34,589 nucleotides of DNA, taken from assembly GCA_937958695.1 (NCBI GenBank), contig CALGNK010000025.1, forward strand, positions 1 to 34,589, in the 5' to 3' direction. The translations under genes were made by a program, and so were the position numbers. The notes under the pieces were generated by a model. It had not been told where the DNA came from. It worked only from the letters and a program-made list of their open reading frames with translations, and did no database searches. Source of the DNA: an uncultured bacterium (GTDB taxonomy: Bacteria; DUMJ01). This document shows positions 29,222-30,396 of this stretch, one piece after another; the first letter of the stretch is position 1, and every line of letters starts with the position of its first letter.

Positions 29222-29581
29222 CTATGCCTTTAAGGCAGATCTAGATAACTCTACTATTCTCCTAAACTCTTCGCTATCTGAGACAGCTAAATCGGCTAAG
29301 ACCTTTCTATTTAGAGAAATACCTGCAAGTTTTAAACCATGCATAAACTGAGAGTAGGTCATGCCAAGTTCTCTAACTCCAGCACTTATCCTGGCTATCC
29401 ATAGTCTTCTAAATTCTCTCTTCCTAGCTTTCCTGTCCCTATATGCATAACTTAGAGCCTTCAGCAAAGCCTCATTAGCCGACCTAAACCTTCTACCTCT
29501 AGCACCTCTATACCCCTTTGCAAGCTTCAATATCTTCTTATGTCTTCTTCTTGTAACTATTCCACCTTTTACTCTAGCCAT
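29222..29581 (-). CDS. rplT: 50S ribosomal protein L20
   Basis: A 119-residue basic protein matching L20 throughout: [65 protein letters not shown], and [18 protein letters not shown]. It binds 23S rRNA early in 50S assembly and in many bacteria represses its own operon. It lies 9 nt after rpmI in the conserved infC-rpmI-rplT order. The mRNA leader upstream of infC is only about 35 nt, too short for the long L20-binding leader known in Bacillus. Confidence 0.98.
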
Positions 29582-29590
29582 ATCTCCACC

Positions 29591-29794
29591 TTATAAACTA
29601 TGAGGTATTAATCTTTTAACTGCTTTAATATTAGTCTTATCTACCTCGGTAAGACTTTTAAGAACTCTAAGTGTAGACTTACTCTTCTGCATAAAGTGGT
29701 GTCCACTATATGCATGAGCCCTCATTATCTTCCCACTACCTGTTACTCTGAACCTCTTCGCCGCTCCTTTGTGTGTCTTTAGCCCTTTTCCCAT
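29591..29794 (-). CDS. rpmI: 50S ribosomal protein L35
   Basis: A 67-residue basic protein with the L35 core KTHKGAAKRFRVTGSGKIMR and HHFMQKSKSTLR. Its ATG and AGGAGG ribosome site lie inside the 3' end of infC, in another frame, giving a 59-nt overlap (29736-29794). Translation of L35 is therefore likely coupled to infC. Gene order infC-rpmI-rplT is the standard one. Confidence 0.97.
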   Translation of the reverse strand: MGKGLKTHKGAAKRFRVTGSGKIMRAHAYSGHHFMQKSKSTLRVLKSLTEVDKTNIKAVKRLIPHSL

Positions 29795-30323
29795 CCTTTT
29801 TTTCCTCCTGTCTTTTAGGTGAGAATATTATTGTATACTCTCTATTCTCGTCAGAGATTGGCTTCTCAGATTCAATTTCTGCTACATCCTTTAAAAGCTC
29901 TGCTATTTGATTAGCCAAAGATACGCTTCTATCTGTATGCAGGAATTGTCTTCCTCTAAGTCTTATTGTAAACTTTACCTTGTTACCTTCAGCTAAGAAC
30001 TCCTTTGCTCCTCTAATCTTAGTCTCTAAATCATGTAAACCAATTTCAGGTCTAAGTCTTATCTCCTTTATCTCTATAACCTTTTGCTTCTTCTTGGCCT
30101 CTTTATCTTTCTTATTCCTTTCGTATTGGAACTTTCCGTAATCTAGTATCTTACATACAGGCGGATTAGCATCAGGATTTATCTCCACTAGATCCAACCC
30201 AACTTCCCTAGCTAACCTCAACCCTTCCTTTAATGGAACTACACCTATATGCTTTCCTCTGGCATCTATAAGCCTAATCTGGGCTGCCTGAATCTGATTA
30301 TTAATTCTTAATTCGTTACTTAT
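29736..30323 (-). CDS. infC: translation initiation factor IF-3, apparent ATA start
   Basis: A 195-residue initiation factor that proofreads start-codon choice on the 30S subunit. The N-domain (ISNELRINNQIQAAQIRLID, GVVPLKEGLRLAREVGLDLVEI), KILDYGKFQYE, and the C-domain with KEIRLRPEIGLHDLETKIR and KVKFTIRLRGRQ are clear. The only codon aligned with the family start and with AAGGAGGG 8 nt upstream is ATA at 30323-30321; a TAA precedes it directly in frame, and the first ordinary start (TTG, 30221) would delete the conserved N-domain. E. coli infC likewise uses a non-standard AUU that IF-3 discriminates against, giving autoregulation. The C-terminus extends about 25 residues beyond FSPK and overlaps rpmI. 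Confidence 0.93.
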   Translation of the reverse strand: MSNELRINNQIQAAQIRLIDARGKHIGVVPLKEGLRLAREVGLDLVEINPDANPPVCKILDYGKFQYERNKKDKEAKKKQKVIEIKEIRLRPEIGLHDLETKIRGAKEFLAEGNKVKFTIRLRGRQFLHTDRSVSLANQIAELLKDVAEIESEKPISDENREYTIIFSPKRQEEKKDGKRAKDTQRSGEEVQSNR

Positions 30324-30366
30324 TTACCAATCCCTCCTTACTAAAATATTAATTCTTACTTGCTAG

Positions 30367-30396
30367 ACTATACCATAAAACATTATTAGCTGTCAA
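30367..30396 (-). promoter_or_regulatory. promoter of the infC operon
   Basis: On the minus strand TTGACA (30396-30391) contains the TGA stop of the AEC transporter gene; an 18-nt spacer and TATAGT (30372-30367) follow. The predicted start near 30360 leaves a leader of about 37 nt before the ATA start of infC. The 18-nt spacer is longer than the 16 nt seen elsewhere in the window. Confidence 0.5.

Follow-up and report, generated by a model that had tools for sequence, protein, structure and literature searches.

An AUA start codon predicted for infC in an uncultured bacterium, and its likely part in IF-3 autoregulation

The gene for initiation factor IF-3 (infC) was analyzed in a 34,589-nt stretch of DNA from an uncultured bacterium (contig CALGNK010000025.1; hereafter the window). 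We consider it likely that this gene is translated from an AUA codon, with IF-3 exerting negative feedback on its own mRNA. The features on which this reading depends, together with candidate genes of a similar kind elsewhere in the same genome, are collected in Table 1.

The infC start site and its conservation

The earlier note had placed the start of infC at an ATA on the minus strand directly behind an in-frame TAA, and both the coordinates and the letters proved correct. As the TAA abuts the ATA, any in-frame start further upstream is excluded. The minus strand around position 30323 reads TAAGGAGGGATTGGTAA, then ATA, then AGTAACGAATTA. The AAGGAGGG that had been reported 8 nt upstream is present there; counted as TAAGGAGG it lies 9 nt from the ATA and is a perfect 8-nt Shine-Dalgarno sequence with respect to the usual anti-Shine-Dalgarno assumed from other bacteria, no 16S rRNA having been found for this comparison in the three assemblies (G000, G001 and G002). 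The earliest in-frame ATG, GTG or TTG is the TTG at 30221, codon 35 of the frame, while the sole other TTG nearby (30330-30328) belongs to a different frame, which closes at a stop four codons on. Because a canonical start is absent and the Shine-Dalgarno sequence is intact, the support for AUA as the predicted infC start far exceeds that for any other codon.

Near relatives of this bacterium were limited to two species of the same genus, both bacterial MAGs (G001, JAOACC010000085; G002, JACIXS010000010), with all further relatives in the collection searched being related at domain level only. Between the species of the genus infC DNA is 90-92% identical, that is, 8-10% of bases differ, and in both sisters the block TAAGGAGGGATTGGTAAATAAGTAACGA is identical, with Shine-Dalgarno sequence, spacer, TAA and ATA retained letter for letter. 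A sequencing error, as raised in the earlier note, or an assembly error might have put ATA in place of ATG or GTG, and the present assembly is indeed a draft in 57 contigs; with the same ATA in two independently assembled species, this explanation carries next to no probability. Identity of the start ATA is by itself weak evidence, since internal isoleucine codons are mostly conserved ATA as well: where isoleucine is kept in the three species the codon is identical in 166 of 209 cases (79%), mostly as ATA, which is the commonest isoleucine codon here.

Initiation at TTG 30221 would give an IF-3 lacking its first 34 residues, and this TTG is the earliest ordinary start codon in the frame. We regard such a start as highly improbable, since the first canonical codon is codon 35 here but codons 31 and 29 in the sisters, leaving no conserved alternative start, and since the strong Shine-Dalgarno sequence precedes the ATA and not the TTG. 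In addition, codons 2-34, which differ between species pairs by 4-7 synonymous and 0-4 non-synonymous changes, evolve as coding sequence; they are conserved as protein, as had been claimed, and belong to the IF3_N domain, whose Pfam match (PF05198) begins at residue 7. Homologues align from residues 1-5.

Entry could also be imagined at an overlapping out-of-frame mini-ORF, followed by frameshifting or re-initiation at the AUA. Two such mini-ORFs were considered, TTG-GTA-AAT-AAG-TAA and ATT-GGT-AAA-TAA; both lie inside the block that is identical in the three species, and the second terminates on the AUA itself (AUAA). Both starts are only 1-2 nt from the Shine-Dalgarno core, which is too close, AAG-TAA gives no good slip, and conservation of the block is accounted for by the Shine-Dalgarno sequence and start region, so that we give this route very little credence and retain direct initiation at AUA.

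Table 1. Features in the window and candidate near-cognate genes elsewhere in the genome (locations beginning with L).
Feature	Location	Strand	Remarks
rplT (L20), ATG start	29222..29581	-	PF00453
rpmI (L35), ATG start	29591..29794	-	PF01632; AGGAGG before ATG
infC (IF-3, 195 residues)	29736..30323	-	PF05198 and PF00707 above cut-off; solved IF-3 chains match
Predicted infC start codon ATA	30321..30323	-	First codon after in-frame TAA; conserved in three species
In-frame TAA	30324..30326	-	From sequence; identical in three species
Shine-Dalgarno TAAGGAGG	30333..30340	-	8-nt match, 9 nt before ATA; identical in three species
Promoter-like TTGACA-18-TATAGT, TG before second hexamer (11/12 matches)	30367..30396	-	Consensus scan only
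rny (RNase Y)	L152:6226-7758 (G000:C5)	+	Candidate ATA start behind GAGGTGAT; directly downstream of recA
Membrane protein gene	L275:11290		Candidate ATA start
DUF554 gene	L198:16753		Candidate ATT start
Amidohydrolase-type deacylase gene	L215:5092		Candidate ATT start
Transporter permease gene	L212:18811		Candidate ATT start
DUF4438 gene	L210:13717		Candidate CTG start
mreC	L270:18526		Candidate CTG start

The gene product, operon and leader

The predicted IF-3 is complete, with both domains present, and can be aligned along its length with that of E. coli. Most of the residues that we take to be important for ribosome binding and discrimination are kept, while E and Q stand at the positions of E. 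coli R116 and R147. A Q at the latter position (IF-3 residue 139 here) occurs in just 3 of the 58 families surveyed below, and R or K in 46. Downstream, rplT completes the gene order infC-rpmI-rplT. The start of rpmI overlaps the 3' end of infC by 59 nt (29736-29794), with the rpmI Shine-Dalgarno sequence inside infC, and this overlapping tail of infC is nearly invariant among the sister species.

With respect to the promoter, the consensus scan returned 3 sites where 2.3 would be expected; the TTGACA and TATAGT of the site upstream of infC are retained in both sister species, and the infC leader predicted from it is probably about 35 nt long. Folding of this leader with the first codons was no better than that of shuffled sequences, and a structured leader hiding the infC start was rejected, as the leader is not stably folded. 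No L20-binding leader RNA of the Bacillus type or other known RNA was found 5' of infC in the window (Rfam, gathering threshold), and the predicted leader of about 35 nt likewise speaks against a Bacillus-type L20 leader. The initiator tRNA gene is of the ordinary CAU type and was the only one found; an altered initiator tRNA reading AUA was therefore also rejected.

infC starts across bacteria and the proposed feedback

To place the AUA codon in a wider context, infC starts were surveyed in 58 bacterial families, each represented by a single genome, the start being taken as that with the best Shine-Dalgarno sequence of at least 5 nt at a spacing of 5-10 nt. Starts were resolved in 43 of the 58 and were ATC in 17, ATA in 12, ATT in 9, TTG in 3, and GTG and ATG in one each, giving an AUN start in 38 of the 43 resolvable families. 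At the same loci 38 rplT starts were resolved, of which 36 were ATG, with one ATT and one ATA. Of the 58 infC genes, 40 were reached with AUN/CTG, compared with 4, 13 and 5 for the decoy codon sets. In E. coli K-12 the annotated infC start is ATT behind a 5-nt Shine-Dalgarno sequence, and several Chloroflexota carry ATA in the same alignment column of infC. As predicted across these families, infC as a rule starts at a near-cognate codon, AUA being a common form.

Published work agrees with this distribution. According to PMC5472188, infC starts at ATT in E. coli and at ATC in Streptomyces; Listeria infC has ATT (PMC13068326), and in S. aureus retapamulin ribosome profiling places the infC start at AUA, with autoregulation suggested (PMC13009471, 2026). 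As in the window, the S. aureus gene has an AUA start, there with an extended Shine-Dalgarno sequence; S. aureus is of an unrelated lineage and its start was measured, whereas that described here is read from sequence. Similarity to E. coli infC lies in the near-cognate AUN start, the good Shine-Dalgarno sequence and the infC-rpmI-rplT order, with the differences that the codon is AUU there and AUA here, and that infC follows thrS in E. coli but a Mem_trans (auxin-efflux type) transporter gene in the window. For the established autoregulation through the E. coli AUU, PMC5472188 cites Butler et al. 1986, 1987 and Sacerdot et al. 1996. The view in the earlier note that AUA would be another version of this circuit draws support from the start evidence, and its novelty is reduced: infC genes starting at AUA are common and already reported, and the circuit proposed here adds to a known type.

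In the proposed mechanism the short and mostly unfolded leader would recruit the 30S subunit through its perfect 8-nt Shine-Dalgarno sequence, set at a good spacing, and fMet-tRNA(CAU) would pair with AUA, the third position being mismatched. According to works cited in PMC5472188, IF-3 turns away initiation complexes formed on any codon but AUG, GUG or UUG. It would destabilize the near-cognate complexes here; infC mRNA would then be poorly translated when IF-3 is plentiful, and its translation would rise when IF-3 is scarce, which is the negative feedback that operates through AUU in E. coli. The parts required are present, namely the AUA, a strong Shine-Dalgarno sequence, an unstructured leader, an ordinary initiator tRNA and a complete IF-3. 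By analogy with these systems, IF-3 very probably limits its own synthesis through the AUA start in this organism.

A simpler reading would accept AUA as the infC start and have it merely fix a low, constant rate of translation, with no feedback from IF-3. A weak start codon does cut yield by itself, AUA and AUU reporters in S. aureus giving about 10% of the AUG yield (PMC13009471), and in this genus similar starts seem to be in use for proteins other than IF-3. We nevertheless find a constant rate unlikely, given that near-cognate starts are subject to IF-3 in E. coli and Streptomyces (PMC5472188) and that low yield alone hardly explains the preference of infC for such starts across families. 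Feedback by IF-3 on the AUA is the reading we favor.

Candidate near-cognate starts elsewhere in the genome

To see how far such starts extend beyond infC, 957 kb of the same genome were sampled in stretches. Outside the window this yielded seven candidate genes that lack a usable canonical start and in which a well-placed Shine-Dalgarno sequence precedes a near-cognate codon. Both sister species, or one sister in the case of the permease gene, have the identical codon in the corresponding position, preceded by a Shine-Dalgarno-like stretch. In rny the ATA and GAGGTGATTTACC are the same in the three species and the first canonical codon is codon 141, or 120 in the sister copies (L171 and L172); in most rny homologues from other families a canonical start lies no more than a few codons away from the ATA position. 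For the DUF554 gene, 5 of 9 homologues have ATG in exactly the column of the ATT.

An automatic count of AUN/CUG starts was not above background, with 9 against 7-9 per decoy set among 804 ORFs; many of the decoy-codon hits were genes with a canonical start some codons further on, or the same ORF as a candidate. As the raw count is no better than that of the decoys, each candidate was judged singly, by its conservation in the sister species and by homology at the N-terminus. In the unrelated control genome G012 at least one gene other than infC, pdxA (L221:7697-8713, minus strand), also seems to start at ATA, with a 7-nt Shine-Dalgarno sequence at a spacing of 7; the first canonical codon of its frame is codon 158. 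In view of the decoy counts and this pdxA, we do not claim that such starts are in statistical excess here relative to the control genomes, G012 and G057.

Near-cognate starts outside infC are known from other bacteria. In S. aureus, ccpN (AUA), cvfC1 (AUU) and citZ (AUA) have such codons behind strong Shine-Dalgarno sequences, as rny, the DUF554 gene and others here appear to; the S. aureus genes are different ones, and their starts were measured by profiling and reporters (PMC13009471). Streptomyces sigR, whose GTC start is repressed by IF-3 (PMC5472188), offers a model of non-canonical-start control for the AUN and CUG genes of this genus, although gene and codon differ and the IF-3 dependence shown there is hypothesized here. 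A possible set would comprise infC, rny and the membrane protein gene with AUA, the DUF554, deacylase and permease genes with AUU, and mreC and the DUF4438 gene with CUG. That these form a conserved near-cognate gene set under common IF-3-level control in this deep lineage is a tentative proposal, which we hold to be rather doubtful; if true, mRNA decay by RNase Y and a cell-shape gene would be tied to the supply of an initiation factor.

Taken together with the survey, the AUA of infC supports a rare infC start codon as the bacterial norm, AUA being one of three usual choices, and as AUN starts are usual for this gene, annotation limited to ATG, GTG and TTG starts will yield a truncated IF-3 in many genomes. 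Most deserving of attention are the additional conserved candidate near-cognate starts, AUA, AUU and CUG within one genus, with that of RNase Y the most striking case. This added set opens the proposal of genes under IF-3 control to experimental testing.
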